64,000 bases of DNA from Lysinibacillus sp. 2017 (GTDB lineage Bacteria; Bacillota; Bacilli; Bacillales_A; Planococcaceae), in contig NZ_CP029002.1 of the NCBI RefSeq assembly GCF_003073375.1, positions 3,272,001 to 3,336,000 on the forward strand. Reading direction: 5' to 3'. How positions within the stretch are numbered: position 1 is the stretch's first letter; each line of letters opens with the position of its first letter. The notes under the pieces were generated by a model. The model was given only the letters and a program-made list of their open reading frames with translations. It did no database searches and had not been told where the DNA came from. Both the position numbers and the translations under genes were made by a program. Positions 28,567-50,722 of the stretch are shown here, piece by piece.

Positions 28567-28695
28567 TGCTTCATCCATAAATAAAAAGCAGATGGCAATT
28601 AGATGTGTGATACCCACACTTCTAAACCGTCTCTTTTTACTTCACTATTAGACTAACTTCAATCAAGCGACCGCTTCACAATGTGATGAGTGCTG
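28567..28695. repeat. rlmCD-tail repeat D with terminator hairpin
   Basis: A hairpin (about 28581-28638, imperfect) is followed by the tail core at 28654-28685 (ATCAAGCGACCGC then TTCACAATGTG), which equals the last codons of rlmCD on the minus strand. The whole 129 bases are about 88 percent identical to repeat C at 45032-45163. Confidence 0.85.
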
Positions 28696-28711
28696 AGCTT
28701 GGAGTAAAAGC

Positions 28712-29548
28712 TCAGCTTTCATCAAGAAGGTTAATCCAAATGCTACCACCGCTTACCGTAACATAGTAGTTTATTTCGGTACCTTCATCACTTTCAAAGC
28801 GGATGGAAGTATTGCCATCATGCTTTGCAGTCAGCGTGACATGGTTTCCTTCTGTAATCTCCACAACGACAACGGACTCATCCTCCAGCGAGTAATTCCA
28901 ACTTCCCTCGTCAAGTAATATTTCCTTTGACTTGTCTATTCCAGTGAAGGAAACAAATGCAATAACAACTGCAACTATAACAGTAAGAGCCGCGATGCGA
29001 TGCTTTTTCTTATCCAGCAAAACAAAAACAAAGAAAACGGCCAGAGCAATGCAAAATATAGCGCTGAGCAAATGATTAGGAAAATTTGCCATTGCAGCTC
29101 TGAAATAACGGACGCTAGCAGCAGAAAGATAACCTGTTGCCACGGATAAAACTACAACGCTGAGCCAGTTTTTCTTTTTAAGTTGGAATGCAATCACGGC
29201 ACCTGGCAAGGTCAGAAGTGTGATTTTAAACCAGTAATCATAATAGCGGAATATGTCCCAACCGTATCCGTAAAACGGAACCTCAATCAAATATATGAGG
29301 GGCTGGCTGACAAGGAAGAACACGAAACATTTAAGCGCGGCTTCCAACCACTTCTTACAGTTAACAACAATGAATACGGCAAAAAGAATCCAGCAGTCCG
29401 CATAAATGGCGATGTCCTGAAATGAGGTATCTTTCAAAAACGACACCTGATTGATAAGCGCAGTATATACTGCTGTAATAATAGCCAAAAGAATAACCCT
29501 CGGCCAGGTCATATTAAATTCTCCAAAATATTTTTTAACTTTTTCCAC
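28712..29548 (-). CDS. Polytopic membrane protein, unknown
   Basis: A 278-residue protein with about seven hydrophobic segments in the first 200 residues and a small outer beta domain at the C-terminus (SVVVVEITEGNHVTLTAKHD, YYVTVSGGSIWI). I do not recognise a named family. Its base composition is visibly higher in G+C than its neighbours, consistent with transfer from elsewhere. The stop lies 26 bases from the rlmCD-tail core D. Confidence 0.72.
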   Translation of the reverse strand: MEKVKKYFGEFNMTWPRVILLAIITAVYTALINQVSFLKDTSFQDIAIYADCWILFAVFIVVNCKKWLEAALKCFVFFLVSQPLIYLIEVPFYGYGWDIFRYYDYWFKITLLTLPGAVIAFQLKKKNWLSVVVLSVATGYLSAASVRYFRAAMANFPNHLLSAIFCIALAVFFVFVLLDKKKHRIAALTVIVAVVIAFVSFTGIDKSKEILLDEGSWNYSLEDESVVVVEITEGNHVTLTAKHDGNTSIRFESDEGTEINYYVTVSGGSIWINLLDES

Positions 29549-29852
29549 GTTTTTCTCCTCTAAATAAAACCTTATTCGAAAGTAATCCCAAAAGGCTTAT
29601 GTTTTTCTATGATTTATTTAACCCGACAAATCCTAATTTGTCTATTTTATTCTACCATTCGGGCAACTCATTAAACATAGTACTGATTGTTGGTTATCTT
29701 ATCCTATCCATAATTTTTCCGAGTAACTTCTTTAGTTTTGTTAAACTTAATTGTAAAATAAACACAAAGAGTTATACCAATAAATCCCAACACAGAACAC
29801 ATCATGCCCTAACTCTTCCTAATACTGAAAATAGAAAATACAGGAGGTAAAA
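29549..29852. other. Gap between divergent genes
   Basis: About 300 AT-rich bases upstream of the amidohydrolase gene. Promoters for both flanking genes should be here, but none is clear enough to name. Confidence 0.5.
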
Positions 29853-31193
29853 ATGCGCAATTTTATTATTAAAAATGGAACAATTATTGATGTTGAAAAT
29901 GGCGGTTCTTATGTAGGCTCAATTGAAGTAGAGAGAAATATGGTAAAAAGAATATTTAAAAGTGATGACGTGTTACCACAAGGTGTAGATATAGTTGATG
30001 CTGAAGGTAAATATATTATCCCAGGTCTAATCGATATGCATTGTCATATCAATGAGCGATTTGCTCCCCATTTCGTTGCATCAGGGGTTACGACTGTGCG
30101 AAATACTGCCGGTAATGTCCTTTTACTAAAAAACTTAATTGAGAAACCTGACGATGCACCAACACCACGAGTATACGCATCAGATAGAATGATTGACGGA
30201 ACACCTGGTCAATGGGGTCCAACTAGCTATGGGGCTCTCGTAACCGACGATCCGGAAGAGGCCAGAAAAGAAGTTCGTAGACAAGTAGAAGTGGGCGCAA
30301 AGTTTGTTAAATTGTATGGATGGATCAAAAGAGAGGTTATGTCAGCAGCTGTAGATGAGGCGAAGAAGTACAACTTGGAAGTTGCTATTGATTTGGTGAA
30401 TTCAAAAGAATTAACTGCTTTAGATGCAGCTGAGCTAGGGGTTGATTGGATTGAACATGCATCCGGTTTTGCACAAGAGATGTATAAAGGGTGGAATCTA
30501 TTTGTAGACCAAGAGGAATGGAGTCATATCGATTGGGTAAACCCAGATCAAGAAAAAATAAAGGAACTTTGTGAGAAAATGTTGGGTTACAATGTAAAAC
30601 TATGTCCAACAATGGTTATTTACGATCAATCTATCAATTATCCTGAATTTTGGTCTCCTAAAAATATTGTCATAGAATCCGCTTCAAATATAGATTACAT
30701 TATGCAATATTGGAATCAACAAGTGGAACATGTAGACTCAATAAAAAAATATAATGCTAAAACACAAAACTTACAGAAAGCCATAGCTAAAATTTACTAT
30801 GATATGGGTGGAACAGTAGTTGCTGGAACGGATACGCCTGGCTTATTATATACTTACCCAGGTATGGTTTTACACCGTGAACTCGAAATATTTGTGGAGA
30901 TTGGCTTTACTGAATTGGAAGCTTTACAAGCAGCGACAGTAAATGCGGCAAAATCTATTAATCTGGATGGGATTGGTGTAATTAGAGAAGGAGCTATTGC
31001 TGATTTAGTTATTTTAAACGACAATCCATTAGAGAACATTAAACATACACAAGAGATTCATACGATTGTAAAAGGCGGTAAAGCTTATACACAAGAGGAA
31101 ATACTAAGCCATGTTCCAAATGAAGAAGAAGTGGAGAAATCAATGGCTAAATTCACGGAACAGTGGGAATCATTAGGAGAATTAAAAATTTAA
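29853..31193 (+). CDS. Amidohydrolase family protein (imidazolonepropionase/prolidase-like)
   Basis: A 446-residue metal-dependent hydrolase. The metal-binding HxH is in GLIDMHCHI, a likely carbamylated or catalytic Lys in KFVKLYGW, further His in WIEHASG and the catalytic Asp in VVAGTDTPG. The C-terminal ATVNAAKSINLDGIGVIREGAIADLVIL is typical of the superfamily. Substrate cannot be inferred. CAGGAGG precedes the ATG. Single gene with a terminator. Confidence 0.87.
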   Translation: MRNFIIKNGTIIDVENGGSYVGSIEVERNMVKRIFKSDDVLPQGVDIVDAEGKYIIPGLIDMHCHINERFAPHFVASGVTTVRNTAGNVLLLKNLIEKPDDAPTPRVYASDRMIDGTPGQWGPTSYGALVTDDPEEARKEVRRQVEVGAKFVKLYGWIKREVMSAAVDEAKKYNLEVAIDLVNSKELTALDAAELGVDWIEHASGFAQEMYKGWNLFVDQEEWSHIDWVNPDQEKIKELCEKMLGYNVKLCPTMVIYDQSINYPEFWSPKNIVIESASNIDYIMQYWNQQVEHVDSIKKYNAKTQNLQKAIAKIYYDMGGTVVAGTDTPGLLYTYPGMVLHRELEIFVEIGFTELEALQAATVNAAKSINLDGIGVIREGAIADLVILNDNPLENIKHTQEIHTIVKGGKAYTQEEILSHVPNEEEVEKSMAKFTEQWESLGELKI

Positions 31194-31226
31194 TGAGATT
31201 AACCCTAAAGTAAAACTGACTCATAT

Positions 31227-31260
31227 AGGCTTGTTCCATTAGTGGAATCAAGCCTTTTTT
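31227..31260 (+). terminator. Terminator of the amidohydrolase gene
   Basis: AGGCTTGTTCCA pairs with TGGAATCAAGCCT, followed by TTTTTT. Confidence 0.88.
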
Positions 31261-31291
31261 ATTAATCTTTTTCTGTAACACTGGTTGGGAA

Positions 31292-31570
31292 CTACACCTT
31301 GTTTAAAGTGAAGTTGTAAGGTATTTTGACACGTTCTGTGCTCTTTCGTTGCTTTCGCCATACGATAATACGGCGAATACGCTTCAAGTTGTACGTGATC
31401 AAGTATTGATTTTGAAGCGTCATTTTAATTTGGCGTGCTCCTTTTTTGCTTCCTCGGAAATAATACGCCTTTAAAATGATGGCTTTGACCATTTCATCTG
31501 CTTTTTGTTTTGCTACACGTTTTTGCGCTGATTTTTCCGTGAAATAGTTGCTATCTGATAGAGTACATTT
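31292..31570 (-). pseudogene. IS3-family transposase remnant
   Basis: Minus-strand text reads KADEMVKAIILKAYYFRGSK, ARQIKMTLQNQYL, NLKRIRRI, then, after a frameshift, RMAKATKEHRTCQNTL. This order matches the N-terminal part of IS3-type OrfB. The DDE catalytic part is missing. It abuts the 3' end of the gene at 31580. Confidence 0.7.
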
Positions 31571-31579
31571 TATTCTAAA

Positions 31580-32077
31580 TCAGAGGGGGGCCTTTTTCAG
31601 TATTTCAACAAGTTTATTATAAAAATTTGAATCCTCCAATATATAAACTTCATCACTATAATTTGTTGTTATTAAAATTTCATTATCTTTATTTTCCTTC
31701 AATAAAAAATCTATGGCTAAATCATAGCTCATTGTATAACCATTATTATCTAAGGCAAGTATGTACATTCCAGAATCAACATCAGCAATACTCTTTAATG
31801 TTTTTTTTACTTTAGTAGTTGCTAATAAATCTATAATATCTTGTGCATCTGATTCAGATATTTCCGTACCAGCACTTTCCTCTTTATATCTGTAAGTCAT
31901 ATACCCTGATATAATACTTTCAGCTAAAAATGGCTTATCTTCTTCAAAATAAGTTGAATTTTTAGCTACTTCAAGAAGAGTCGTCTCTTCTTGAAAAAAG
32001 GTGCCTCTAACAAATAAAATTGCTACAAAAAGTACAACAACTGTTGCAATAATTGAAATCCATTTTTTCTTAGTCAT
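31580..32077 (-). CDS. Single-span membrane-anchored protein, unknown
   Basis: A 165-residue protein with an N-terminal signal anchor (WISIIATVVVLFVAILFV) and a soluble extracellular domain with no recognised motif. GGGGGA precedes the ATG. Its 3' end meets the IS3 remnant, so the C-terminus may be altered by that insertion. Confidence 0.65.
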   Translation of the reverse strand: MTKKKWISIIATVVVLFVAILFVRGTFFQEETTLLEVAKNSTYFEEDKPFLAESIISGYMTYRYKEESAGTEISESDAQDIIDLLATTKVKKTLKSIADVDSGMYILALDNNGYTMSYDLAIDFLLKENKDNEILITTNYSDEVYILEDSNFYNKLVEILKKAPL

Positions 32078-32240
32078 TCAATAATCCCCCACATCCATTA
32101 AGGAAATTATATACAAATAGCCTATACTTATCTATACTCGAAATCTTTATAAAATTGAATTTCATAACACATTTAATTTACATAATAACGGATATACCAT
32201 TCTATATTTAGATCGAGAGTTTTGTTCCTTGCACTATAAA

Positions 32241-32280
32241 TAAGGGCCTATCTGAAAACAAACTTTCAGACAGACCCTTA
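32241..32280 (-). terminator. Terminator of the FAD-oxidase gene
   Basis: TAAGGGTCTGTCTGAAA pairs with TTTCAGATAGGCCCTTA on the minus strand. Confidence 0.75.
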
Positions 32281-32290
32281 CACTATTTAA

Positions 32291-33661
32291 TTACTTCTCC
32301 ACTTTAATATTATGATTATGACAAAATACGTTTGTCGGGTCATATTGCGCTTTCACTTGTTGTAAACGCACGTAATTCTCAGCAAACGCATCCTCAGTTG
32401 CAGTTTCTGTAGGATTAATAGAATTTAAGTAAGATGCTTTTTTATGCGCGTATGGGCGTAATCCATCATATAAATCGTTAATCCACGTTTCACATACTAC
32501 ATCGTCGTCGTCCATTGCCATCACGTCCACTATTACTGCCCAGCCCGCATCACGCATCGCAAATGGTGATGTTTCCGCTGTCATTTCGTTCATCTTGCCA
32601 CCGAGTGACCATACTTGCCCTAAAATCCCAGGTGATGGTGGTGCATCCATAAAGCTTAAAAACTTCTGTAACGCTTCGCCTTCTAATTTATCGAAGTATA
32701 AGGCAGTGCCGTAACAGTTGACGCTTGGTGGAATCATCGGGTCAAGCTTTTGCTGTAGTGTGGTATACGGCATAATCGCGGAATAGTCCACGATTGGCTT
32801 TGCTAGCTCGCGTAATGGTTGCATAGCTGCTTCGCCTTCCTCTTTCACACCTGCATACATACCTAACACCATAATGACTTTTTTGAAGTGTAGTGCTTCT
32901 GGTAAAAATGGTACTGGAGGTAAAATCGTCACCGTAAAGTTGACCGCCACACTTTCATTTGGTGCGGCCTCTACAAAGCGTTGTGCCTTGATGAACACCT
33001 CTTTTGCATCCGCGTAGTCATACATTAAATCTAATGCAAATACCTCCGTGCCGATTTCATACGCTTGGAATACCAGCTTCGTTACAACACCGAAGTTTCC
33101 GCCACCACCGCGCAGTGCCCATAAAAGATCTGGGTGTGAATATTCATCTACTGTTAAAATTTCTCCATCTGCTGTCACAATGGTAGCGCCGATAATATTG
33201 TCGCAAGCTAAGCCATACACACCGCGTAAATAGCCAATTCCACCACTTAGCGCGACACCAAATGCGCCTGGGTTTGAAGCGGTTCCGAGTGGTACGGCTA
33301 AACCGTACTTTTGCACTTCAGCTGTTAGTTCCCCTGCCTTTACGCCAGCTTCCGCTTCTACGGTTTTCGTTTCTTCATTTATCGTCATTGTTTTCATCGC
33401 TGACATATCGATTGCCACACTACCTTCTGCTATGGCAAACCCTGCTAAATGGTGTCCACCACCTTTGATCGCAATCGTTAATCCTCTTGCATTTGCATAA
33501 TTTACGGCCTCCACTACATCCTGTTCCGTTTCGCAGACAATGATGGCTGCAGGTTTTGACTGGACCGCGGAGTTGAAAATTTGGCATTTCTCTTCATACA
33601 GTTCGTTTGTCGGTAATAGTAACTTCCCTTGTAACGCTTGCTCGTATTGCTGAATACTCAT
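32291..33661 (-). CDS. BBE-type FAD-linked oxidoreductase
   Basis: A 456-residue flavoprotein of the berberine-bridge/oligosaccharide-oxidase type. The FAD domain has PAAIIVCETEQDVVEAV and GGGHHLAG, whose His is the usual covalent FAD anchor. YGLACDNI offers a Cys at the site used for a second covalent link in bicovalent members. The C-terminal BBE segment (NYVRLQQVKAQYDPTNVF) is intact. Substrate is unknown; bacterial relatives oxidise sugars or complex natural products. GAGGTG fits the ATG at 33661. No cargo partner. Confidence 0.88.
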   Translation of the reverse strand: MSIQQYEQALQGKLLLPTNELYEEKCQIFNSAVQSKPAAIIVCETEQDVVEAVNYANARGLTIAIKGGGHHLAGFAIAEGSVAIDMSAMKTMTINEETKTVEAEAGVKAGELTAEVQKYGLAVPLGTASNPGAFGVALSGGIGYLRGVYGLACDNIIGATIVTADGEILTVDEYSHPDLLWALRGGGGNFGVVTKLVFQAYEIGTEVFALDLMYDYADAKEVFIKAQRFVEAAPNESVAVNFTVTILPPVPFLPEALHFKKVIMVLGMYAGVKEEGEAAMQPLRELAKPIVDYSAIMPYTTLQQKLDPMIPPSVNCYGTALYFDKLEGEALQKFLSFMDAPPSPGILGQVWSLGGKMNEMTAETSPFAMRDAGWAVIVDVMAMDDDDVVCETWINDLYDGLRPYAHKKASYLNSINPTETATEDAFAENYVRLQQVKAQYDPTNVFCHNHNIKVEK

Positions 33662-33739
33662 TCGACACCTCATTCAATTTTTGATTTCCTTAAAGGAACA
33701 TCAGGTATATATATGTGAACAGATCAGCAAATACGACTC

Positions 33740-33910: not shown

Positions 33911-34010
33911 ATGGCCATATGTCGTACGTATCGGAAAAGTGCACATTTTTTTATATTTCGGGCTTACCCTGAGAACAGTTCACTTTTTAGTTGGGTTGGT
34001 ATTCCCCTCT

Positions 34011-34032
34011 ACCAAGTGACCGCTTCACAATG
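34011..34032. repeat. rlmCD-tail repeat G, fused to the merR 3' end
   Basis: ACCAAGTGACCGC then TTCACAATG, one base different from the core in rlmCD. This short copy supplies the TGA stop of the MerR gene at 34025. Upstream terminator-like sequence is absent here. Confidence 0.75.
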
Positions 34033-34369
34033 ATTTAATAATAATTTTCTGATCAATTTCACTAATAAAAGAATTTAAAACATCAATTTGCTCTTCTAAT
34101 TTTTTCTTGTGCTGAATTAATATAGCTTGCGTATTAATCTCTTCCTGTTCTAAACTCAGCGTTGAAATATTTTCTCTTATATCCTCAATTGACATGCCTA
34201 GATTTCGAAAACATTTAATTAATTTTAAAAGTTCAATGTCTTGTTCATCAAATATTCGATGCTCTTGTTCATTTCTTTTTACTGGTGGAATTAAATCTAT
34301 TTTTTCATAGTATCGAATTGAACTTGCAGGAATTTCAATTAAGAGGCTCGCTTGTTGAATTGTATACAC
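34025..34369 (-). CDS. MerR family transcriptional regulator
   Basis: A 114-residue regulator with the MerR winged helix (YTIQQASLLIEIPASSIRYYEKIDLIPPVKR) in the first 35 residues and a helical dimerisation region. There is no Cys-rich metal site, so the signal is probably organic or electrophilic. It diverges from the DJ-1-like gene across 74 bases that contain a MerR-type operator. The C-terminal residues KSL and the stop come from the rlmCD-tail repeat, so the natural end may have been replaced. Confidence 0.85.
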   Translation of the reverse strand: MYTIQQASLLIEIPASSIRYYEKIDLIPPVKRNEQEHRIFDEQDIELLKLIKCFRNLGMSIEDIRENISTLSLEQEEINTQAILIQHKKKLEEQIDVLNSFISEIDQKIIIKSL

Positions 34370-34381
34370 GATGTGTCCTCC

Positions 34382-34410
34382 TTGACTTAAAGTATGGTTT
34401 AACCTTTAAG
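34382..34410 (+). promoter_or_regulatory. MerR-type operator/promoter
   Basis: TTGACT at 34382-34387 could be a -35 element. The inverted repeat CTTAAAG and CTTTAAG, 11 bases apart (34386-34410), covers the spacer, as in MerR-controlled promoters with long spacers. It should control the DJ-1 and nitroreductase genes. Confidence 0.55.
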
Positions 34411-34443
34411 CTTGATAGTATCAAACTTTAAGGAGATTTCATA

Positions 34444-35130
34444 ATGAAAAAGATCTTATTAGTAGTAACGAATATTTCTAAATATCCCAATTTACAACGT
34501 GCAACAGGATTATGGTTAGGGGAAGCTGTTCACTTTGCAGATGAAATGGAAAAAGAAGGGTATCAAATTGATTATGTGAGCCCTAAAGGTGGTCATACGC
34601 CACTTGACCCACACAGTTTACAAGCTGATCAAATGACCGAATTAGATTGGAAATATTACGCAAATGCTGATTTCTTAAACAAACTAAGCACTACTTTGCC
34701 GGCTGACTCTATTAACCCGAATGATTATGATGCTATCTATTATGCAGGTGGTCATGGAGTTATGTGGGATTTCGCAGAAGATGAAAACCTACAAAACATT
34801 GCAAGTACTATTCACGCTAACGGTGGCGTTGTTTCTGCTGTTTGTCATGGTGTTGTTGGATTATTAAATATTAAAAATGGCGACGGTGAATATTTAATTA
34901 AAAATACTAAAGTGACTGGTTTTACTAACACAGAAGAAATTGCTGTTGGACTAGATAAAGTCGTTCCATTTTTAACTGAAGATGAACTTGTTCGTAAAGG
35001 GGCTAATTACGTAAAAGATGCTGATTGGTCAGTATTCACTGTAACTGATAATCGTATCGTTACAGGACAAAATCCCGCATCAGGTGGCGCAGTTGCCAAA
35101 GATGTAATTAAATTATTAAAATCACTTTAA
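34444..35130 (+). CDS. DJ-1/PfpI family protein (Hsp31-like glutamine amidotransferase fold)
   Basis: A 228-residue protein with the class I amidotransferase fold. The nucleophile is in VSAVCHGVVGL and the GGHG motif in YYAGGHGVMWD. The family includes chaperones and glyoxalase III enzymes that remove methylglyoxal and other electrophiles. The divergent MerR gene and the downstream nitroreductase suggest a small electrophile- or quinone-stress set. AAGGAG precedes the ATG. Confidence 0.88.
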   Translation: MKKILLVVTNISKYPNLQRATGLWLGEAVHFADEMEKEGYQIDYVSPKGGHTPLDPHSLQADQMTELDWKYYANADFLNKLSTTLPADSINPNDYDAIYYAGGHGVMWDFAEDENLQNIASTIHANGGVVSAVCHGVVGLLNIKNGDGEYLIKNTKVTGFTNTEEIAVGLDKVVPFLTEDELVRKGANYVKDADWSVFTVTDNRIVTGQNPASGGAVAKDVIKLLKSL

Positions 35131-35252
35131 TCTTTGCTTATGTAAAATTACGTTTAAATAACTCTTACAGAGCTAATACAAAGTTCGCTCTATTTTTAAA
35201 TTGATGAGCAAAAGCAGAATATAGATTACTAAAATAATAGAGGATGGTAAAT

Positions 35253-35882
35253 ATGCTACAACAAAAAACAGCTTTAGAAAAATTAATGGATGAACGTAAA
35301 TCAGTGCGTAAATATGAGCCTGGTGTTACAATTCCGCGCGAAACAATCCAACATATCCTAGAGCAAGCAACATCAGCTCCATCATCAAGTAACTTACAAC
35401 CTTGGCGCTTTCTTGTTATCGATGATCAAGAACAAAAGAAAGAATTGCGTATTGCTGGTTTTAATCAAGCACAAATTGAAACATCATCAGCAATTATTGC
35501 TGTTTTAGGCGACAATGAAATGTATAAAAATGCGAAACAAATTAATGATTTAAATGTTGAACTAGGCTATATGCCGCGCGATATTGCTGATATGATGATT
35601 TCAAATTCTGAATCTGCATATAGTAATTTTTCTGAAATTGAACGCACAAATATTGCACATTTAGATGTCGGTTTAATTTCTATGCAAATCGTACTTTTAG
35701 CGAAAGACATGGGCTATGAAACAGTAATTATGGGTGGCTTTGATAAAGTAGCTTTCGCTAAAAAATACGAGCTTCCTGCAAACGAATTACCGATGATTTT
35801 AATTGCTATCGGAAAAGCTGCAGTACCAGCACGTAATTCATCACGCTTACCATTCGAACAAATTATTCGTTTTTCTAAATAA
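35253..35882 (+). CDS. Nitroreductase family protein
   Basis: A 209-residue FMN-dependent oxidoreductase. MDERKSVRKYEPG and APSSSNLQPWRF are the FMN-binding motifs, and GYETVIMGGFDK the C-terminal one. It probably reduces quinones or nitro compounds with NAD(P)H. AGAGG favours the ATG at 35253 over one nine bases upstream. Same direction as the DJ-1 gene, 122 bases on. Confidence 0.9.
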   Translation: MLQQKTALEKLMDERKSVRKYEPGVTIPRETIQHILEQATSAPSSSNLQPWRFLVIDDQEQKKELRIAGFNQAQIETSSAIIAVLGDNEMYKNAKQINDLNVELGYMPRDIADMMISNSESAYSNFSEIERTNIAHLDVGLISMQIVLLAKDMGYETVIMGGFDKVAFAKKYELPANELPMILIAIGKAAVPARNSSRLPFEQIIRFSK

Positions 35883-35941: not shown

Positions 35942-36120
35942 TAAAAAAGCTGTGCTAAAATCTCCTACAACGTAGATTTTTGACACAGCTTTTTTATTGT
36001 ACTTCTTTCTATCTAACTCCAACCAAGCGACTGCTTCACAATGTATAGAGTGTTTGTGGCTACACATTGATGGGTTTAATTATTTGCTCGGTTCCTATTT
36101 AAATGGAATCGAGCCTATTT
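35942..36120. repeat. rlmCD-tail repeat E with two terminator hairpins
   Basis: Hairpin 1 (35942-35996, AAAGCTGTGC/GCACAGCTTT type with inner AAAATC/GATTTT) is of the same layout as the rlmCD terminator. The tail core follows at 36014-36044, then an rlmCD-like upstream stretch in the reverse sense, and hairpin 2 at 36086-36120 (GCTCGGTTCC with GGAATCGAGC). Hairpin 1 can also end the nitroreductase gene. Confidence 0.8.
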
Positions 36121-36528: not shown

Positions 36529-36654
36529 GACTGTCCACCTCCTTCACCAAATTAGAATGCCCAAAACGGTTAAGGAGAATACTCGATATTTGTAATTTTA
36601 ATATTTGGAAAATGTAAGTTTCCAAACATGATATGGAAATTCAATTCGATTAAA

Positions 36655-36726
36655 CTCCGAAGGTAGGACTCGAACCTACGACCAATCGGTTAACAGCCGA
36701 TTGCTCTACCACTGAGCTACTTCGGA
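36655..36726 (-). tRNA. tRNA-Asn (anticodon GUU)
   Basis: A 72-nucleotide cloverleaf: acceptor TCCGAAG/CTTCGGA, D arm AGCTCAGTGGTAGAGC, anticodon stem ATCGG/CCGAT around CTGTTAA, and T arm GGTTCGAGTCC, with discriminator G. CCA is not encoded. It stands alone, not in an rRNA or tRNA cluster, directly upstream of the Asn-rich gene and in the same direction. Confidence 0.95.
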
Positions 36727-36901
36727 AAGATTATATGGCCTTTATTTCGTACTCGATTATAATAGCCAATCAAAAATCAATTTATACTATTTTTTTGTTT
36801 ACTTCTACTTTTGTATAAGTTAAAGAACATAATACTAATTAGAATGGAATGATTCTCCGAAATGTACTAAAGCTACTCTTTTATTTGAAGTAACCAGCAA
36901 T

Positions 36902-37777
36902 TCAAATTTTATTAAATGGTGGCGATTTCAGGTATTCAATGAACTTTTTCGTAGCTGGAGCAAGGGTTTTAAAATTAGTAGAAGCAATGCCAATTGTTCG
37001 GAAATTTTCTCCCTCTAACTTAATCGTTCGAACGTTCGTTGGAACCCGATGCAAAACCATTTCAGGTAGTATACTAATTCCCATACCATTTGCAACCATT
37101 GAAATAATTGCTTGGTCATCTGTCAGTTCAAATTTTATATTAGGGGTAATATTATGTTCTTTTAATATTCGTATTAGATCGTTATCACTCCCCTTTTTCG
37201 ACTTGATTAAAGGGTCCTCTTTAATGCTTACAAAACTAATCTCATTCTGATCCGCAAGAGGGTGTTCATCTGAAAGAACACAGAGCAATCTATCCTTTTT
37301 TAAGGGGATCGCTTCAAGATGTTTCGAAGTTGGTAGAGACACGAAACCAATATCAACCAAACCAGTTGATATCCAATACTCGACATCATCATAATCCCCC
37401 TCTAGGAGTTTGATCTCGATAGAGGGATAACACTCAGTAAACATTTTCATGATTTCAGGCAGCCAGTGAATGGACACACTTGAAATCGTTCCAATGCGTA
37501 CTGTACCAATTTCAAGTCCATTGATATTCGCTATTTCTTGAATCATTTCTTCGTTCCACTTTAGAATTTCGCGTATGTATTTTAAAACGTGCTCCCCATT
37601 ACTGGTCAAATGGATACCTGAGCGTCCACGTTTGAGGATAGAAAATCCCCATTCTGACTCAAGGCTAGTAATGGCATGACTCACGGCAGATTGACTTAAA
37701 CCAAGTGTTTCACTTGCTCTCGTAAGGCTCCCCAATTCCACAACAGTACTAAATATCTCATACTTAACAAGAGACAG
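36902..37777 (-). CDS. LysR family transcriptional regulator
   Basis: A regulator of about 290 residues: winged helix (VELGSLTRASETLGLSQSAVSHAITSLE) and a LysR substrate-binding domain. The start is uncertain. AAAAGGAG is placed for a CTG start at 37777, which also gives the usual short LysR N-terminus (xSLVKYEIF); an ATG at 37810 has no ribosome-binding site. It diverges from the EamA transporter gene and probably controls it. Confidence 0.87.
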   Translation of the reverse strand: MSLVKYEIFSTVVELGSLTRASETLGLSQSAVSHAITSLESEWGFSILKRGRSGIHLTSNGEHVLKYIREILKWNEEMIQEIANINGLEIGTVRIGTISSVSIHWLPEIMKMFTECYPSIEIKLLEGDYDDVEYWISTGLVDIGFVSLPTSKHLEAIPLKKDRLLCVLSDEHPLADQNEISFVSIKEDPLIKSKKGSDNDLIRILKEHNITPNIKFELTDDQAIISMVANGMGISILPEMVLHRVPTNVRTIKLEGENFRTIGIASTNFKTLAPATKKFIEYLKSPPFNKI

Positions 37778-37899
37778 TTTGATCACTCCTTTTACTTGAA
37801 AATTATTCATGTAAAACTTTAGAAACATTCATTTTTCTTATACTGATTTTACAATTATACTTAAAAAAATTCTATTTGTAATAGGTTAGGAGATCAAAA

Positions 37900-38844: not shown

Positions 38845-38971
38845 CTTTGAGTGTCCTTTGTTGCGAAATTTAATCTTTCCTATCCAAATGGGGCAACTCA
38901 CTTCCACAAATTTTTGGCCAGCTTTAATTTTAAAGCAACAAGAAAAAAGAACGATTTCCACCACCTGGAAT

Positions 38972-39124: not shown

Positions 39125-39180
39125 TATTATCACCCACTATTATCAAAGTATCATGAAAATACTTATGTAATAAAACAAAA

Positions 39181-39924: not shown

Positions 39925-40079
39925 CTAAATATCCTCCTCTAAATATCCTAATTTACAAAATGTAAATCATTTTATATAATAAACTAACAGAACATCTATT
40001 ATTTTACAAATAAAAAGGAAAAAATAAAGTAGCTAATTTTAAGTTTCAACACTAAACTCTGAAAACATGAAGGGATTGT

Positions 40080-41073: not shown

Positions 41074-41237
41074 AAAAAACGACTTTCACAAATGAAAGTC
41101 GTTTTCTTTTTTTACATTATACTAACTCCAACCAAGCAACCGCTTCACAATGAGTGGAGTGTATGCGGCAACACATGAGTGCTGGTGGGTTTAAGTGATT
41201 GGCTAGGTCCTACAATTGTAGAACCTAGCCCTTTTTA
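41074..41237. repeat. rlmCD-tail repeat F with terminators
   Basis: A hairpin (AAACGACTTTCA/TGAAAGTCGTTT with T tract, 41074-41113), then the tail core at 41123-41152 (CCAACCAAGCAACCGC then TTCACAATG), then a stretch shared with repeats B and E, then a second hairpin with T tract (GGCTAGGTCCTAC region, 41201-41236). Confidence 0.82.
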
Positions 41238-42032: not shown

Positions 42033-42252
42033 AATAGATTTCATCCCACAATTATCCTGCTTCACAGTAGCAACTACGCACCGAAGACTGACTCACCAAA
42101 CATCATTGAACCATATATCACCCTTAACTTTTGTGATTACAACTAAAAAAATTTATAAAGTATCTAGAAGTTAACTTAAGTCAATGAACGGTTTTTATCT
42201 CCTTGTTATTATTAAATTTAATCAAAGATATTAACATTTGGAGGGGATTTTT

Positions 42253-43112
42253 ATGAAGGCAATAGTTTGTGATAAATATGGTTCACCTGATGTACTTGAA
42301 TTAAAGGAGGTAAAAAAACCTTTTCCTACCGAGAATCAAGTATTAGTTAAGGTTCATTCAGCATCTTTAAACTTTGGCAACCTAGTTCTTTTGAAAGGTA
42401 AACCCTTCTTAGCCCGTTTTGCCTTTGGACTAACGAAACCAAAATACTCAATTCCAGGAGGTGACATAGCTGGTACAGTTGAAGCTGTTGGGGAAAACGT
42501 TAAGCTATTTAAAGTAGGCGATGAAGTATTTGGTGACCTTTCTGGTTGTGGCTGGGGTGGTTTTGCTGAATATGTAACGGCCCCCGAATATGCTTTAGCC
42601 TTAAAGCCAACCAATACCTCCTTTGAGGAAGCTGCTGCGTCTCCTATGGCAGGCGTGACTGCCTTACAAGGACTACGTGATAAAGGTGAAATTAAATCGG
42701 GGCATAAAGTATTAATTTATGGCGCATCTGGAGGCGTTGGAACTTTTGCGGTACAAATTGCTAAATCATTCGGTGCTGAAGTAACGGGCGTATGTAGTAC
42801 AAGAAATGTAGAAATAGTGCGTTCGATAGGAGCCGACCATATCATTGATTATATAAAAGAGGATTTTTCACAACAAAAGGAATGTTATGATTTGGTTCTT
42901 GGCGTGAATGGTTCTAATTCCATTTCAGCTTATAAACGTATACTAAAGCCAAATGGAAATTTTGTTCACGTAGGAGGTTCCGAGTCTCAACTTTATCAAA
43001 CATTATTTCTTGGACCTTTAATTTCAATGACTGGAAGAAAGAAAATGCGTAGCCTGTTACAAAGAGCAAATCAAAAAGACTTAAATGATGTAAAAGAGTT
43101 ACTTGAGAGCGG
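42253..43112 (+). pseudogene. NAD(P)-dependent alcohol dehydrogenase (MDR family), 5' part, split by IS
   Basis: The first 287 codons of a medium-chain dehydrogenase/quinone-reductase-like protein: KAIVCDKYGSPDVLELKEV, GGDIAGTVEAVG, and the cofactor motif YGASGGVGTFAVQIAK. After LLESG the frame runs into an insertion element and reads through 39 foreign codons. The missing C-terminal part resumes at 44905. GGAGGGG supports the ATG at 42253. Zinc ligands are not evident, placing it with the zinc-free quinone-oxidoreductase branch. Confidence 0.88.
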
Positions 43113-43282
43113 TGTCTGTCAATATAGTTGTCGCATCAAGTTACTTTATTTTTCTACTAAACTCATATTTATTGTGTTCAGAATCCCCATATCAATCGAA
43201 GCTATCGCGCTTTGCTTGATCGCCTGTTAATCTTCAATGGAAGGAAAAGCTTCTTCCATTGAAGATTAACAGGAAAAGGGGG

Positions 43283-44347
43283 TTATTCTGACATGATTTT
43301 TTCTTTCATTGGATTCAGTGCTACTTCTTTATGCGCTGACCAATTACGTGTTGCTCCTGTCCAACGTTCGGGATTCTTCTGCTTCGATTTCTCGTAAACT
43401 AGTTTTCTATTTGCTAGAACTTTATGATGCTCACCCGTATGACACTGCACAGATGTCACAAAATTTAACGCACTATGCAAATGCACTTCGTTATACCAAC
43501 AAACAAATTCCAACGCCCATTTTCTTGCTTCCTCAATTGTTTTAAAGCCTTTTCGAGGGAAATTTGGACGATATTTTAACGTCCGAAACATCGCTTCTGA
43601 AAACGGGTTATCGTTACTCACACGTGGCCTAGAATACGAACTTTGTATGCCCATTTTCTCCAGAAAACCTTGAAATGTCGAAGCTTTCATCGGGCTACCA
43701 TTATCAGAATGTAACACTAATGGTGCGCCTTGAATCCTTTCATTCAGAACCGCTTTTTGTACTAACTGCTCCGCATATTTCGCTTCTTCTGTTTCCCAAA
43801 CTTCCCAGCCTACAACCTTACGGCTAAATAAATCGATAATTAAATAAAGGCGGTAATACATGCCTTTCACAGGTCCGGCCAACCACGTAATATCCCATGT
43901 CCACACTTGATTCGGTGCTACCGCAAGATGGCTTTCTGGTGTACGTTTTGTTGGCTTTTGACTGAAGCCTCGGTGATTTTGCATGTTTTCTTCACGTAAT
44001 ACACGATAAAATGTTGATTCTGAGGCAATATATGTGCCTTGATCGGCTAGCTTCGGGACAATCTGAGTTGGAGGTAAATCAGCGAATTCATCTTGCTTCA
44101 CAACCGTTAAAATTTCTGTTCGTTCTTCTTCCGACAGCTTATTTTTGGGTACAGGTCGCTTGGCTTTCGGGCGTTGATCTAACTGAATTTCGCCGCCCTT
44201 TACCCAACGTTCATACGTTCGTACACTAATATGCAGTTCTTCACATGCTTTCGCCAATCGCGCCCCATTTTGATTCGCTTCTTGAATCAGCTCTACCGCT
44301 AGTTTGCGATTTGACGGGCAGGTCATTCTTCCTCTTCGTCCCCCCAA
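43283..44347 (-). CDS. IS3-family transposase OrfB
   Basis: A 354-residue integrase-core protein. DDE residues are seen in VWTWDITWLAG (Asp), LVLHSDNGSPMKA (Asp) and FSEAMFRTLKY (Glu). The N-terminal helix-turn-helix (ISVRTYERWVKGG) is encoded here as well. It overlaps orfA by 25 bases in the -1 frame. A TTTGGGGGG slip site in the overlap suggests that an OrfAB fusion is made by programmed frameshift, as in other IS3 elements. Confidence 0.9.
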   Translation of the reverse strand: MGGRRGRMTCPSNRKLAVELIQEANQNGARLAKACEELHISVRTYERWVKGGEIQLDQRPKAKRPVPKNKLSEEERTEILTVVKQDEFADLPPTQIVPKLADQGTYIASESTFYRVLREENMQNHRGFSQKPTKRTPESHLAVAPNQVWTWDITWLAGPVKGMYYRLYLIIDLFSRKVVGWEVWETEEAKYAEQLVQKAVLNERIQGAPLVLHSDNGSPMKASTFQGFLEKMGIQSSYSRPRVSNDNPFSEAMFRTLKYRPNFPRKGFKTIEEARKWALEFVCWYNEVHLHSALNFVTSVQCHTGEHHKVLANRKLVYEKSKQKNPERWTGATRNWSAHKEVALNPMKEKIMSE

Positions 44348-44832
44348 ATCGCTTGGGCCTTTTTTCGAAGTAAGAGTAATGCCGCTGCTTCTGCGAGTGC
44401 CTTTTCTTTCTTCTGTAAATCTTTTTCTAATGCTTTTGAACGCTGCTGTTCTTCTTTGAGCTGACCATTTAATTGTTTCGCTTGATCAAATACTTGACCA
44501 TTTGCCTGAAGGCAAACCTCTTTCCATGCTTCAATCTGTTCTCGGTACAAGCCTTTTCTACGACAATATTCTGCGAGTTCCACTTCATTCATTGCGAATG
44601 TTTCCATTACGACTAAAAACTTATCCTGACTGCTCCACTTATCACTTATTTGGTTGTTACCTGGGGTAACTTCGCCAGTCGCACGTGCTTCCTTGCGCCA
44701 TTTATATAGTGTTACATCTGTAACGCCCGTTTCTGCGCTTAGTTTCGGTACCGATTCATTTTGTGGAGGCATCATTCGTGCAATAATCGCCTGCTTTTGT
44801 TCAGCTGTGTATCGTCCTCTTCTTAGTTCCAT
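44323..44832 (-). CDS. IS3-family transposase OrfA
   Basis: A 169-residue protein: N-terminal helix-turn-helix (RYTAEQKQAIIARMMP, TGVTDVTLYKWRKEAR) followed by a long coiled coil with leucine-zipper spacing. It supplies DNA binding for the OrfAB transposase. GGAGG precedes the ATG. It ends at GDEEEE with the slip site just upstream. Confidence 0.88.
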   Translation of the reverse strand: MELRRGRYTAEQKQAIIARMMPPQNESVPKLSAETGVTDVTLYKWRKEARATGEVTPGNNQISDKWSSQDKFLVVMETFAMNEVELAEYCRRKGLYREQIEAWKEVCLQANGQVFDQAKQLNGQLKEEQQRSKALEKDLQKKEKALAEAAALLLLRKKAQAIWGDEEEE

Positions 44833-44904
44833 TCGTCTCGACCTCCGTGTTTTTACTTAATCATATCACGTTAGCTCGGTACGACATCTATCCTAACAGA
44901 GGGG

Positions 44905-45021
44905 GAGAGCGGAAAAGTAAAACCAATAATTGATAAACGATTTAAGTTAAGTGAAATAACGGAAGCATTCAAATATTTTCAGGAAGGTCACGCTCAAGGG
45001 AAAGTGGTGATTACTTTATAA
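44905..45021 (+). pseudogene. Alcohol dehydrogenase, 3' part after IS
   Basis: After the repeated GAGAGCGG the frame reads GKVKPIIDKRFKLSEITEAF and ends GHAQGKVVITL with a TAA stop. This is the classical end of MDR dehydrogenases and completes the gene that starts at 42253. Without the IS the protein would be about 323 residues. Confidence 0.88.
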
Positions 45022-45031: not shown

Positions 45032-45163
45032 TACTTCATCCATAAAGAAAAAGCAGACGGTAAACTAGAAGTGCGATACCAACACTTCTAAACCGTCTGC
45101 TTTTTACTTCACTATTATACTAACTCCAACCAAGCGACCGCTTCACAATGTGGTGAGTGTTGA
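45032..45163. repeat. rlmCD-tail repeat C with terminator hairpin
   Basis: Hairpin (AAAAGCAGACGG/CCGTCTGCTTTT, 45047-45105) followed by the core at 45121-45152 (CCAACCAAGCGACCGC then TTCACAATGTG), an exact copy of the rlmCD tail over that stretch. The full 132 bases match repeat D at about 88 percent. Confidence 0.88.
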
Positions 45164-45178: not shown

Positions 45179-46954
45179 TTAGATAGATGCGGTAGATTCA
45201 CCTTCACTTATAGATTTCATTCCTTCCACAATTTCTGATGTACTATCTAAATGGGTAATTTGCGTTTCTTTATCTGCTAATATTTCTAAAGCTTCTTTCA
45301 TGGCTTTTACAGCAGGTATGGCTCCATCATTTAAGTCCCAACTTTGGGCTAATTTAAATGCCGATAATGGTTTTCCTAACGTTGAATCATAAGAATAGCC
45401 ATGTGCTTCTTCGAAATTCTTTTCCATTATAAATCTACTAGCACTCTTCTCCGATATTGAGTTAAAACTTGCAATGCATTGATCAATTTTTGTATTCATA
45501 GTCCATGCTGCTGAAGTCTTTCCAGATACAGTTTTTTCGTCATCTAGATCATGTACGACAAAATATTTTATCTCAAAATGCTCTAAGACCTTTTGGAATG
45601 CTGGAATGTTCATCTTCGAACCACAATTAACAATTAAAGGGGATTCTGCTAATTTCAATGTTCTATTTTCAACAAAACCTTTTAATATTTCTCTGAACAC
45701 TATAGCCTCTGTATCTCCCTCAACTAAAATAACTTTGTCAGCAAAGAATGCTTCGCATACATAAGGATTAAATGTGTTGAGCATTTTTAAAGTTTCCTTC
45801 TCATCAGATTCAAATATATTACTTTTAACTTGATGAGCCTTAGTTCCCTTATCTGTCATTATAACTCTTATTAGTGTTGTATGATTTTTACTTAAATCTA
45901 CTAATATTGGCGAATGAGTTGCAGTCATTATTTGAAATTTTGAACCTTCTGCCAAATTATATAATGTATTAGTAAATGCTCTTATTGATTGAGGGTGTAA
46001 AAATAACTCTGGCTCTTCAATTAAAAGTATACTTGATTTATTTTCTACTTGTTCAGTTTGAACCCCTAAGGTGTCAAGTATCCCATCATTCTTTCTTTGA
46101 GCTTTAGTTTTACTTAATTCAACCATTACATCATTTAATTCTCTCATAGCATTAAATAAAAATTGTCTTCTAACACCATGACCGTGATTTTCCATACCTA
46201 CAGCAAAAGTATTATTGTTAGTTATTTGTACTTCGGTATCTACAAAGTCACCAACTTTCTTTTCAATACTCGCCTTTTCCTTGTTTACCAATTCTAAATT
46301 CATGTTTGGAAATGTATCTTTTAGTAATCCATCTAATCTATCTTGTAACTTAATCGTATATTCATGTTCACGTATTTCATTCCTTAGTACCTCTAAATTG
46401 CTATTTAATTGAGTGTAAATTGGTAGCTCAGTTACCTTTGATATCACTTTTTCTTTTATTAATTTATTTACCGTTTCTAATATTGCCTCGGCACTATCTA
46501 ATCCTCGTAACCAGATTGGTGTTGGGCAAGCATTTTGTAATATTGTATCGAATCCTCCTGCCCCACCTTTATCCCATTCTTTCGTTGTTACATTCCAAGT
46601 AAACTTCTCAGCGGACTTTCCGACTTCGCTCCATACTTTCCTAAATCGGCCTATTTTATTTTTATCCATTGAATTTGTCATGGCACGGTGATTTTCATCG
46701 TCTGTTCCCTCGGCTTTAATCCAAGCTTCAATAATAATTTTGTTATCTAAGCCATTATAAAAATCATCATTTAAAGCATTTATCGAAGTAGTAACAAAAT
46801 AATCATATGCATGTAATATAGATGATTTCCCCACATTATTCTGCCCAATCAAATTAATTACATTTGTATCCTCCATATCAATTACTACACCCGGAGTTTC
46901 ATCATTACCGCCAATTGATCTGAAATTAGTAATTAATAACTTCATCAACTTCAT
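45179..46954 (-). CDS. OLD family ATP-dependent nuclease (AAA ATPase plus TOPRIM)
   Basis: A 591-residue protein. The ATPase half has Walker A (IGQNNVGKSS), the ABC-type/Walker B region (LLIEEPELFLHPQS) and a switch His (ATHSPIL). The C-terminal TOPRIM nuclease has Glu in VILVEGDTEA and Asp-x-Asp in VVHDLDDEK. OLD proteins exclude phages; some need a helicase partner (Gabija type), but none is adjacent, which suggests a stand-alone class 1 OLD. AAAGGGG precedes the ATG. The stop is 26 bases from the core of repeat C. Confidence 0.87.
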   Translation of the reverse strand: MKLMKLLITNFRSIGGNDETPGVVIDMEDTNVINLIGQNNVGKSSILHAYDYFVTTSINALNDDFYNGLDNKIIIEAWIKAEGTDDENHRAMTNSMDKNKIGRFRKVWSEVGKSAEKFTWNVTTKEWDKGGAGGFDTILQNACPTPIWLRGLDSAEAILETVNKLIKEKVISKVTELPIYTQLNSNLEVLRNEIREHEYTIKLQDRLDGLLKDTFPNMNLELVNKEKASIEKKVGDFVDTEVQITNNNTFAVGMENHGHGVRRQFLFNAMRELNDVMVELSKTKAQRKNDGILDTLGVQTEQVENKSSILLIEEPELFLHPQSIRAFTNTLYNLAEGSKFQIMTATHSPILVDLSKNHTTLIRVIMTDKGTKAHQVKSNIFESDEKETLKMLNTFNPYVCEAFFADKVILVEGDTEAIVFREILKGFVENRTLKLAESPLIVNCGSKMNIPAFQKVLEHFEIKYFVVHDLDDEKTVSGKTSAAWTMNTKIDQCIASFNSISEKSASRFIMEKNFEEAHGYSYDSTLGKPLSAFKLAQSWDLNDGAIPAVKAMKEALEILADKETQITHLDSTSEIVEGMKSISEGESTASI

Positions 46955-47651
46955 TTAATATTTCCCCTTTGCTATGAAATGATGTTTAATCTAGATGTTA
47001 CTCTACAATTAATTATTCCTCACTAACAATAATTTGTAAATGTTGGAAATTATTTATTTGGATGACCTACACCGGGTGGAAAAACAACTCCGACAATCAT
47101 CTACAATTCAAAAAGCCATGCCGAAAATCCCAATATAATCTAGATTTTCGGCATAGCCATTTCTTAATAATTATTAAATCAAACTAATTCCAATCAAGTA
47201 ACCATTTCACAATGTGTCTAGTGTATGTGGTAACACATGGATGCTGGTGGGTTTTGTTTGTGCACCCGGTGCATGTTTCTTCTACGAAAAAGAAGATTAT
47301 GATAGTTTACTCGAAAGGTTAGATTGTCAATTACACAAAAATTTTGAAATTCAAAAAGCCAATATAACATCATGCTGACCGTAAGATGAAAGTGCGTAAT
47401 ATCTTTAACTTGGATTTACCGTTTGTTATGGGATTACGTTAGCAAAATGTAAACACTTATAAGCAGATGTGTATTAAGGTATTTCATATATTCCACTTAG
47501 CATTATTAGATAATTATTACAAACACCTATAGACTATAGTATCATTTATCTTTTAATTAGGACTGTCTTAAACATTTAATCGTTCAACCTACATATGTTT
47601 AAAGTGATTTTTTTATGCTACATCCATTGATAAAAATGATTGTTACGTTTT
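46955..47651. other. Gap carrying repeat B
   Basis: About 700 bases between the OLD and KwaB genes. Apart from rlmCD-tail repeat B, the only feature is a 42-codon open frame near 47245-47372 with no ribosome-binding site. Confidence 0.5.
47110..47265. repeat. rlmCD-tail repeat B with terminator hairpin
   Basis: Hairpin 47110-47165 (AAAGCCATGCCGAAAATC with its near complement) has the layout of the rlmCD terminator. The diverged core is at 47185-47216 (CCAATCAAGTAACCA then TTTCACAATGTG). The next 50 bases (for example TGTGGTAACACATGGATGCT) resemble those of repeat F and, more weakly, the preceding codons of rlmCD. Confidence 0.75.
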
Positions 47652-49072: not shown

Positions 49073-49297
49073 CCCCCTTCTTACATGAAATTATAAGTAA
49101 AATAATGTAATTACGCAAATTTATTTACACTTATAATGAAACTATGTCAGTATATTAGTAAGGCTAAAGCCGAACGTTTGATAATAGCTATCCTTCATAA
49201 AAAATCAAGAACAACAATGGGATAGTTGTACGCCGAATAATCTGCACCAGATATAAGAACAACCTAGATAATTAACTACAATTCCAAAGTCACAAAC
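49073..49297. other. AT-rich gap, likely Kiwa promoter region
   Basis: About 225 bases between the KwaA gene and the rlmCD terminator. No further gene is supported. Confidence 0.5.
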
Positions 49298-49350
49298 AAA
49301 AAGCTGAGCGAAAATCCCTTTACTAGTTGGATTCTTCGCACAGCTATATT
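49298..49350 (-). terminator. Terminator of rlmCD (repeat copy A)
   Basis: AAGCTGAGCGAAAATCC pairs imperfectly with GGATTCTTCGCACAGCT. The same layout recurs at 35942, 47110 and 13445. Confidence 0.75.
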
Positions 49351-49357
49351 TATTCTA

Positions 49358-50722
49358 TCAAACCAACTCCAACCAAGCGACCGCTTCACAATGTGTCGTA
49401 TGTGGGAACATATCAACTGGCTGTACTTCCTGTGTTTTATAGCCACCATCTTCTAAAATGCGAAGATCGCGTGCTAATGTTGCTGGATTACATGAAACGT
49501 ATACAACACGTTTCGGTTTTTGCTCGATAATTGTATTTAGTAGTGCCTCATCGCAGCCTTTGCGCGGTGGGTCAACTACTAATACGTCAGCTTCTTTACC
49601 TTCTGCGTACCAGCGTGGAATGACTTCCTCTGCTGGGCCTGCTTCGAAATACGTATTCGTTAAGCCGTTTAACTCCGCGTTACGTTTCGCATCTTCAATT
49701 GCTTCTGGTACGATTTCTACACCCATTACTTGTCCTGCTTTTTGAGCTAAAAATAACGAAATTGATCCGATACCACAATACGCATCAATTACACGCTCAT
49801 CACCTTGTAGCTGTGCATAGTCTAGTGCTTGTTTGTAAAGCACTTCTGTTTGGATTGGGTTTATTTGATAGAACGAACGTGCTGAAATTTCAAAGCGTAC
49901 GTCGCCAATTGTATCTTCGATCGTATCGTTACCCCAAAGCGTAATTGTTTCGTCGCCGAAAATAACATTGGTTTTTTCGCTGTTTACGTTTTGTACAATG
50001 GATGTCACATTTGGAACAAGTTCACGGATTTTTTCGATTACCGCATCTACTTGTGGGAATTTTTTTGATTTTGTGACAAGTACGATCATCACTTCTCCAG
50101 TAGCACGACCTTTACGGACAACAACATGACGTAGCATGCCTTGATGGGACTTTTCATCATATGGACGAACACGTAATAATGCTAACTCATCCTTTAATTT
50201 ACCCATCATTGTATCTGCTTCACCAGTTTGAATTAGACAACGATTCATATCCACAATGGCATGTGATTTTGTTTTGTAGAAACCTGCCACTGCATCGCCT
50301 TCTTCATTTTGTGCAAATGGAATTTGTGATTTATTGCGGTACTGCCACGGCTCTTCCATACCTTTTACTGGATGCACGGGTGCGTCGATTTTACCTAATC
50401 TCTTCATTGCATTCTCAACCATGTTTTGTTTCCATTTTAATTGACCTTCATATGAGAGATGCTGCAATTGACAGCCCCCGCACTGGTCAAAATATTCACA
50501 GGTTGCATCTACACGATCTGGTGATTTTTCTAGGATATCTACCACTTTTGCAAAGCCGTAGTTTTTTAATGTTTTTAAGACATGTACTTCTGCTGTCTCC
50601 CCAGGAAGTACGCCTTGAATAAATAATGGATAGCCGTCAATTTTTGCAACGCCATTACCATCATGTGTTAAATCTTCTATATAAACAGTTGTACGATCAT
50701 TTTTTTTAATCGGTGCAGTCAT
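49358..50722 (-). CDS. rlmCD: 23S rRNA (uracil-5-)-methyltransferase RlmCD
   Basis: A 454-residue SAM-dependent enzyme that makes 5-methyluridine in 23S rRNA. TRAM domain in residues 1-60; Fe-S Cys in [20 protein letters not shown]-binding [27 protein letters not shown]; and the catalytic [14 protein letters not shown]. The last codons ([15 protein letters not shown]) form the sequence repeated through the accessory region to the left. It lies near dgkB, an arrangement common in Bacillales. Confidence 0.94.

Follow-up and report, generated by a model that had tools for sequence, protein, structure and literature searches.

The region behind rlmD in Lysinibacillus sp. 2017 raises a question: why should the 3′ end of a single gene recur several times downstream of that gene? 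The DNA considered here, called the window, is a stretch of 64,000 nucleotides (positions 3,272,001 to 3,336,000 of contig NZ_CP029002.1) from a genome consisting of a single contig of 3.74 Mb. It carries rlmD, a methyltransferase gene of the rlmCD type, and further copies of the last 36 bp of this gene, termed tails, with blocks of cargo between them. It seems likely, with a probability of roughly 0.8, that this ladder formed by serial insertion of elements encoding a large serine recombinase (LSR), and of derivatives without an integrase, at the rlmD 3′ end, with displacement of the tails. The tails are best read as earlier rlmD 3′ ends that were pushed away, the new 3′ end being supplied by the element.

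The tails were scored, in bits, with a profile of 54 columns built from 58 tails of other loci, so that the window was not scored against itself. Besides the end of rlmD, there are five strong copies and one truncated copy, all on the minus strand and to the left of rlmD, which is its 3′ side. The strong copies and the rlmD end score 50–76 bits; 40 dimer shuffles, scored on both strands, reach 11.0 at best. A 16-bp tail probe with up to three mismatches has six matches in the window, all on the plus strand, where 0.08 are expected. The best score on the opposite strand of the window is just 1.7, and on the rlmD strand to the right of rlmD, within the window, it is −6.7. The original prediction, which was made from the letters of the window, is thus borne out for the tails at 47185, 45121, 41123, 36014 and 28654, and its statement that all copies share the orientation of rlmCD and lie on its 3′ side, with none to the right, agrees with the profile scan of both strands. 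At 34011 it had placed a further tail; a copy is present there, identical to the rlmD tail at 20 of its first 21 bases, but it is truncated and scores only 7.5. A weak copy suspected near 13508 is not supported: it is absent from the top 16 profile sites and has no blastn-short match to the left ends of the blocks.

Hairpins adjoin most of the tails. When 90-nt pieces were folded, six of the seven tails, that of rlmD included, had a hairpin immediately downstream of them on the strand of rlmD (fold z-scores of −2.9 to −7.0), the exception being the truncated copy at 34032. Hairpins beside most of the tails had been predicted and are seen at these six. A simple terminator scan of 28500–48400 shows no excess (11 found, 11.9 expected). 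Across the whole genome, the patterns of the tail and of the conserved sequence before it occur at the rlmD locus and at one other place, 1,647,361–1,647,420, and the scatter of tails in both orientations that would have spoken against the prediction was not seen.

Similar ladders occur in related genomes (numbered here as genomes, G, and loci, L). The rlmD loci were gathered from 80 database records and 29 other genomes (15 genus mates and 14 picked by matches to the sequence preceding the tails), which gives 81 distinct loci: the window, 56 of the 80 record loci and the 29 others, minus five duplicates. Beyond the rlmD start, 48 of the 51 distinct record loci have 9.9 kb of DNA or more, the window has 13.3 kb and the others have 0.4–6.0 kb. 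Extra tails, counted at up to four mismatches, lie behind rlmD in 29 of the 81 loci, and all 54 of these tails have the orientation of rlmD and lie downstream of it. Within the genus of the window, 9 of 16 genomes have an extra tail inside the DNA fetched. The 64 blocks in 30 ladders have a median length of 2193 bp (range 390–11895), with 45 under 3 kb; in 38 of the 64, the right-hand tail can be read through ten codons without a stop, the third being a codon for E and the seventh one for W. No tail was found in phage or plasmid records or in viral contigs, the viral scan using an exact 24-base pattern.

The crossover would take place in a core, CATTGTGA. The bases directly before this core are largely of two conserved types, here called arms A and B, which are conserved up to the core and, as judged by eye, both end close to RCACTCnnCACATTGTGA. 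Type A matches 21 of 261 family genomes and type B matches 7; a B-arm tail in G013 lies 22.7 kb from rlmD. Where a CCACATAC-like motif is present, its start lies 16 bp ahead of the core in most tail arms (25 of 28) and 12 bp ahead of it in every rlmD end (72 of 72, rlmD duplicates included). The attP and attB half-sites of large serine recombinases show a similar offset, and the difference between 16 and 12 bp may be likened to that shift. In the mechanism proposed here, the element would bring, to the right of the core, a replacement rlmD 3′ end, usually with a terminator-like hairpin, and its other end would be the type A or B arm preceding the core. Insertion, probably catalyzed by the LSR, would give rlmD a new 3′ end, and the old one would move to the far side of the element and stay there as a tail. 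Since the new 3′ end would still be target-like, the site would be renewed and the next element could insert. The recombinase gene would later be lost from inserted elements.

The RlmD C-termini form classes, among them HVECVSQLILK, HVECVALMSR and a class found in LSR-bearing loci. The far tail of L028 reads HVECCVLLKLR, and its rlmD now has a different C-terminus; at L174, rlmD ends in HVECVSQLILK and its downstream tails give EAVAWLEL or a near match. Such differences would fit replacement of the 3′ end at each insertion, and a comparison of the sequences of L028, L174, L187 and L192 suggests that the C-terminus of the target protein is replaced in this way. In streptococci, insertion of an integrative and conjugative element (ICE) is reported to replace the C-terminus of RumA (PMC4701971).

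A candidate for the enzyme is provided by the relatives. The original prediction had noted the lack of an integrase, and no phage- or LSR-type integrase was found in the 19 open reading frames (ORFs) scanned in the array from 28.7 to 49.1 kb, a set that left aside short ORFs and those overlapping others. A serine integrase at the end of an element is present at the same site in relatives. Of 261 family genomes, 15 contain LSR homologues at E ≤ 1e-30. Twelve LSR loci were examined, a set without the matches of 34–37% identity in G233, G243 and G244 and the additional ones of that level in G248, G250 and G013. Of the twelve, seven lie just 3′ of rlmD and three just 3′ of a RumA-type paralogue, convergent with the gene; of the other two, one has no rlmD within 20 kb and one runs off the contig. 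The LSR frame at the ten loci stops 17–57 bp past the gene end in seven, among them G013 and G161, and inside the gene 3′ end in two, L195 and L199; it is decayed in one (L204). In L195 and L199 the frame runs on the other strand into the rlmD 3′ end, that of L199 being split by a transposase-like ORF, so insertion there would change both C-termini.

In G161 and G013, the rlmD-side block starts with an LSR gene; it is convergent with rlmD, and its stop lies 17 bp beyond the shared codons. In G161 this gene is split into two overlapping ORFs. In G013 it is open over 544 codons, and its product has Resolvase, Recombinase and Zn-ribbon domains; among proteins of solved structure, the TP901-1 integrase is the closest to it in sequence. 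The G013 element further contains genes for type I modification and specificity, along with another resolvase-like ORF and one that is tyrosine-recombinase-like. Additionally, C-terminal codons of the LSR gene are kept at the left end of 9 of 63 other blocks (E ≤ 2e-12), with one more weak case. These remnants include inner blocks of ladders (the second or third block, L193_b2, L165_b3 and L194_b2), and in three blocks a type A arm is paired with such a left end. A protein database contains at least 65 relatives of the LSR at E ≤ 1e-40, some of them from Ureibacillus, Bacillus altitudinis, Lysinibacillus and Solibacillus ferritrahens. Relatives also occur in 163 phage records, all at less than 60% identity (26–30% in the 12 matches listed), so no close phage source was seen.

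The tail-bounded blocks, or cassettes, are shared as units across species and genera. Block L172_b1 from Psychrobacillus (G151) corresponds tail to tail with L189_b1 (G015) from the genus of the window, with 89.9% identity over the whole block and 72.1% in rlmD. Block L176_b1 (G002), also from that genus, is 94.8% identical to L193_b2 of Lysinibacillus odysseyi (rlmD, 76.5%); the match runs from the left tail and ends 50–110 bp short of the right tail. The third cassette of the window, which encodes an alcohol dehydrogenase and a Crp-like regulator, aligns end to end with L189_b1 and L172_b1, an IS3 insertion aside. Its identity to the other copies is 91–93% (rlmD, 73–85%); it is first in L189 and in L172, and a partial copy is found in G001. 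None of these four copies, one of them partial, was found to hold an LSR remnant, which suggests that the unit travelled without an integrase of its own or that the integrase was lost before the unit spread. Overall, cassette DNA is more alike than rlmD in 16 of 17 compared pairs, by 3–20 points, where cassette identity is that of the best local alignment, a measure that favours the cassette; in the remaining pair, L043_b1 and L194_b1, the two are equal. Three loci of a single genus, L160, L010 and L174, have adjacent blocks in common and in the same order, as expected from vertical descent. Comparison of relatives had been proposed as a check on the tail-bounded blocks: they recur as whole units, in varying order and across genera, and ancestral blocks that never vary were not what was seen. 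These units support integration at the rlmCD 3′ end with one tail per event, as had been predicted, and the class of enzyme can be refined to LSR.

The ends of the shared cassettes bear on a second explanation. Of 15 pairs with tabulated ends, ten have the right end in common, and in six of these ten the identity drops from 0.77–0.93 in the arm to 0.42–0.49 just past the tail, with a background of 0.48–0.53. The original prediction had named capture by homologous recombination as an alternative: after DNA uptake, recombination would occur at rlmD on one side and at the tail and terminator on the other, and the tails would be the guiding homology. Homology that ends at the 36-bp tail leaves a very short stretch for such a crossover, and this alternative is further weakened by the LSR remnants at block left ends and by the conservation of both arms right to the core. 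It does account for several features, since tail and hairpin form a short similarity at many cassettes, left-end families recur, the rlmD ends of LSR-remnant cassettes look mosaic and the similarity of L176_b1 and L193_b2 stops before the right tail. On balance, homologous recombination is improbable as the source of the ladder.

Several observations weigh against serial insertion by an LSR. No LSR of this clade is found at E ≤ 1e-30 in the genome of the window, which has four other Recombinase-domain proteins, so the ladder there is at present without a known engine; nor does any of the six blocks of the window hold an LSR C-terminal remnant. The bases after the core are ATGCTGTGC at the left ends with a long LSR gene (L187 and L192) versus GCNGTNGC at the nine LSR-remnant ends. 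Neither excision nor a circular form was observed. Four of the ten right-end pairs stay above background, at 0.64–0.84: three of them involve L191_b3, where the next stretch is also shared (0.69–0.84), and the fourth is a same-genus pair at 0.64. Because the relatives beyond the genus were chosen partly for their arms, 29 of 81 is not a prevalence. Some arm-plus-tail sites are not at rlmD, several of them within a unit of about 860 bp. Finally, the LSR elements of both G013 and G161 contain a tyrosine-recombinase-like gene. This enzyme, or a tyrosine recombinase of the host, might move the small cassettes, with the LSR serving large elements only, and the cassettes of the window, being without LSR remnants, would be in line with this. 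The joining of the A arm with LSR-remnant left ends in three blocks speaks against it, as does the clustering of ORFs, in which that of L192 has no relative among the other 29 ladders. A tyrosine integrase near rlmD was also considered for the genus, and among the PF00589 matches listed, which reach down to about 1e-18, none lies by rlmD in its 16 genomes. A tyrosine recombinase as the mover of the small cassettes is very improbable. Under serial insertion by an LSR, the small cassettes would instead have moved as integrase-less derivatives.

The features of the window are collected in Table 1.

Table 1. Features of the rlmD region, in positions of the window.
Feature	Coordinates	Strand	Basis
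rlmD, rlmD/rlmCD-type 23S rRNA uracil-5 methyltransferase gene	49358..50722	-	Pfam tRNA_U5-meth_tr and TRAM, RumA family
Tail in use (last 36 bp of rlmD)	49358-49393	-	profile score 57.8
Cassette 1: KwaA (48476-49072) and KwaB (47652-48479), Kiwa-like anti-phage pair	47652..49072	-	PADLOC profiles
Tail copy 1, type A arm before, hairpin after	47179..47214	-	score 50.4; fold z -4.88
Cassette 2: OLD-family ATPase-TOPRIM nuclease	45179..46954	-	Pfam; PADLOC Old 2.3e-70
Tail copy 2, type B arm before, hairpin after	45115..45150	-	score 72.9; fold z -7.00
IS3-family insertion inside cassette 3, limits approximate	43112..44908	-	rve and HTH_Tnp_1 ORFs; alignment to the G015 copy
Cassette 3: Crp-like regulator and zinc-type alcohol dehydrogenase	41445..43230	+	
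Tail copy 3, type A arm, hairpin after	41117..41152	-	score 75.9; fold z -4.38
Cassette 4: tRNA-Asn, LysR regulator, EamA transporter, SDR oxidoreductase, MCP-domain protein	36654..40919	.	
Tail copy 4, type A arm, hairpin after	36008..36043	-	score 63.9; fold z -4.58
Cassette 5: MerR regulator, DJ-1/PfpI protein, nitroreductase	34025..35882	.	
Tail copy 5, truncated, joined to the MerR gene end, no arm recognised, no hairpin	33997..34032	-	score 7.5; fold z +1.20
Cassette 6: unknown protein, amidohydrolase, weak SIS-domain match, FAD-binding/BBE protein	28712..33673	.	
Tail copy 6, type B arm, hairpin after	28648..28683	-	score 57.1; fold z -3.49
dus-like gene	8782..9762	-	DNA matches 85-1134 bp behind rlmD in L022, L024, L026, L028 and L029

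The cargo of the window is varied. The presence of two anti-phage cargos, as predicted, agrees with profile matches to KwaA and KwaB and to an OLD-family nuclease. The DJ-1/MerR part of the fifth cassette is also present in G007 and in Psychrobacillus insolitus. An 8-bp repeat, CCGCTCTC, stands at the two ends of the IS3 insertion, whose pair of genes is the sole set of transposition genes among the 19 ORFs. The tRNA-Asn(GTT) gene of the fourth cassette, at 36654–36727, is a lone one.

The accreted region may extend as far as the dus-like gene, to position 9762, judging from gene order. The name dus is a putative one, taken from the sequence of this gene. The gene directly adjoins rlmD in several relatives and is therefore more likely to be an old flank; that it is ordinary cargo is less favoured for the same reason. 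It does, though, lie between two tails in L160, L190, L043 and L194. A weak tail-like site directly behind it in the window (8694–8729) scores 10.5, within the range of the shuffles, and similar sites follow dus in L024, L160, L190, L043 and L194.

Arms and tails away from rlmD were recorded as well. The second place in the genome of the window (L155 9961; G000:C1) has one A arm and a degraded tail, far from rlmD. The unit of about 860 bp consists of an arm, a tail and an ORF of 155 amino acids (about −100 to +780 around the A arm) and lies at unrelated places in L156, L158, L162, L163 and L173; its main part is 91–96% identical across the five genomes, and it is partly deleted in L162. One copy belongs to a genome of two contigs, where it lies on a contig of 191 kb that may be a plasmid. 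L171 (G158:C76) is an array of four tails away from rlmD; it includes part of dus, its left end resembles the LSR-remnant ends, and it was perhaps moved by rearrangement. In L157 (G008), an ORF of 649 amino acids, presumably LtaS-like, lies between two arm-plus-tail sites away from rlmD, and sulfatase-domain proteins similar to it are rlmD cassettes in L166 and L170.

Accretion islands built by serine recombinases are already known. What is new here is the host family and the site, together with the small size of the units, the scarcity of integrases and the sharing across genera. Streptococcal ICEs and integrative and mobilizable elements (IMEs) with a single serine integrase occur at rumA (PMC4701971, PMC5704250). 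As in the ladder, the target belongs to the same gene family, the enzyme is a serine integrase, the class implicated here by the relatives, short repeats lie in the 3′ part of the gene and the C-terminus of RumA is changed; insertion at the gene 3′ end with repeats at both ends, as described for rumA/rlmCD LSR elements, is also found at rlmD. The attachment (att) site of those elements is inside the integrase gene, as may be so at L195 and L199, where the LSR frame ends inside the rlmD 3′ end. In contrast, the LSR genes of G013 and G161 end outside the core, 17 bp before the shared codons would be reached, and most blocks here are under 3 kb, without an integrase and arranged in long ladders.

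The ssrA islands of Dehalococcoides, with DsiB, resemble the ladder in being tandem islands with 3′-end repeats downstream of one gene (PMC3146451). Their integration module contains a serine recombinase of 540 residues, on the reverse strand by attL, with a smaller resolvase-type gene beside it, and the gene arrangement of the G013 element is close to this; 15 ssrA islands are without the module (PMC3146451). However, their target is a tmRNA gene, and they were described within Dehalococcoides (PMC3146451), which is of a different phylum; the site here is rlmD, a protein gene. The staphylococcal cassette chromosome (SCC) and the Enterococcus cassette chromosome (ECC) resemble the ladder in that they lie in the 3′ region of a methyltransferase gene, involve large serine recombinases and have direct repeats and remnant elements, but their gene is rlmH and their repeats are of about 50 bp (PMC6222049). 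Tandem ECCs carrying several ccr sets were not observed directly in that study (PMC6222049). Cis-mobilizable elements (CIMEs) and accretion provide a further parallel, with loss of integration genes, retention of att ends and stacking by further insertions (PMC5704250). The arms, tails and LSR remnants described above likewise amount to att-like ends kept after loss of integration genes. The ladder is unlike CIMEs in the number and small size of its units and in the presence of the same integrase-less unit in more than one genus.

Other insertions have been described. These include prophages between rlmCD and fosX in Listeria (PMC8386393), insertions around rlmCD in pneumococci (PMC8321556) and, with a tyrosine recombinase, IME8 at yolD (PMC13239906). 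No description of a ladder like that of rlmD was found in the literature by title and start of abstract, among the matches listed.

Integrons are arrays of small cassettes behind a fixed entry site, and they depend on the tyrosine recombinase IntI and on folded attC sites. The ladder is similar in being an array of small cassettes at a fixed entry site and differs in that no IntI-like gene, or other family of integrase type, was found among the 19 ORFs scanned. Tentatively, the rlmD 3′ end of the Planococcaceae might be a serine-recombinase counterpart of the integron. It would then be a renewable entry site for small cassettes without an integrase, drawn from a pool common to the family. Each cassette would have its own replacement rlmD 3′ end and terminator and would be moved as a unit by a recombinase acting in trans, and the ladder would record past RlmD C-termini in order of arrival. 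This broader proposal is possible, though doubtful at present.

For the family, which includes Solibacillus, Lysinibacillus, Psychrobacillus, Viridibacillus and others, the finding provides a mapped hot spot of gene gain, anti-phage systems included, at which the borders of the cassettes can be read from the sequence. It suggests that accretion by serine integrases can involve units as small as one or a few genes, which cross from genus to genus without their integrase. Whether a serine recombinase can operate a gene store of the integron kind thereby becomes a testable question.

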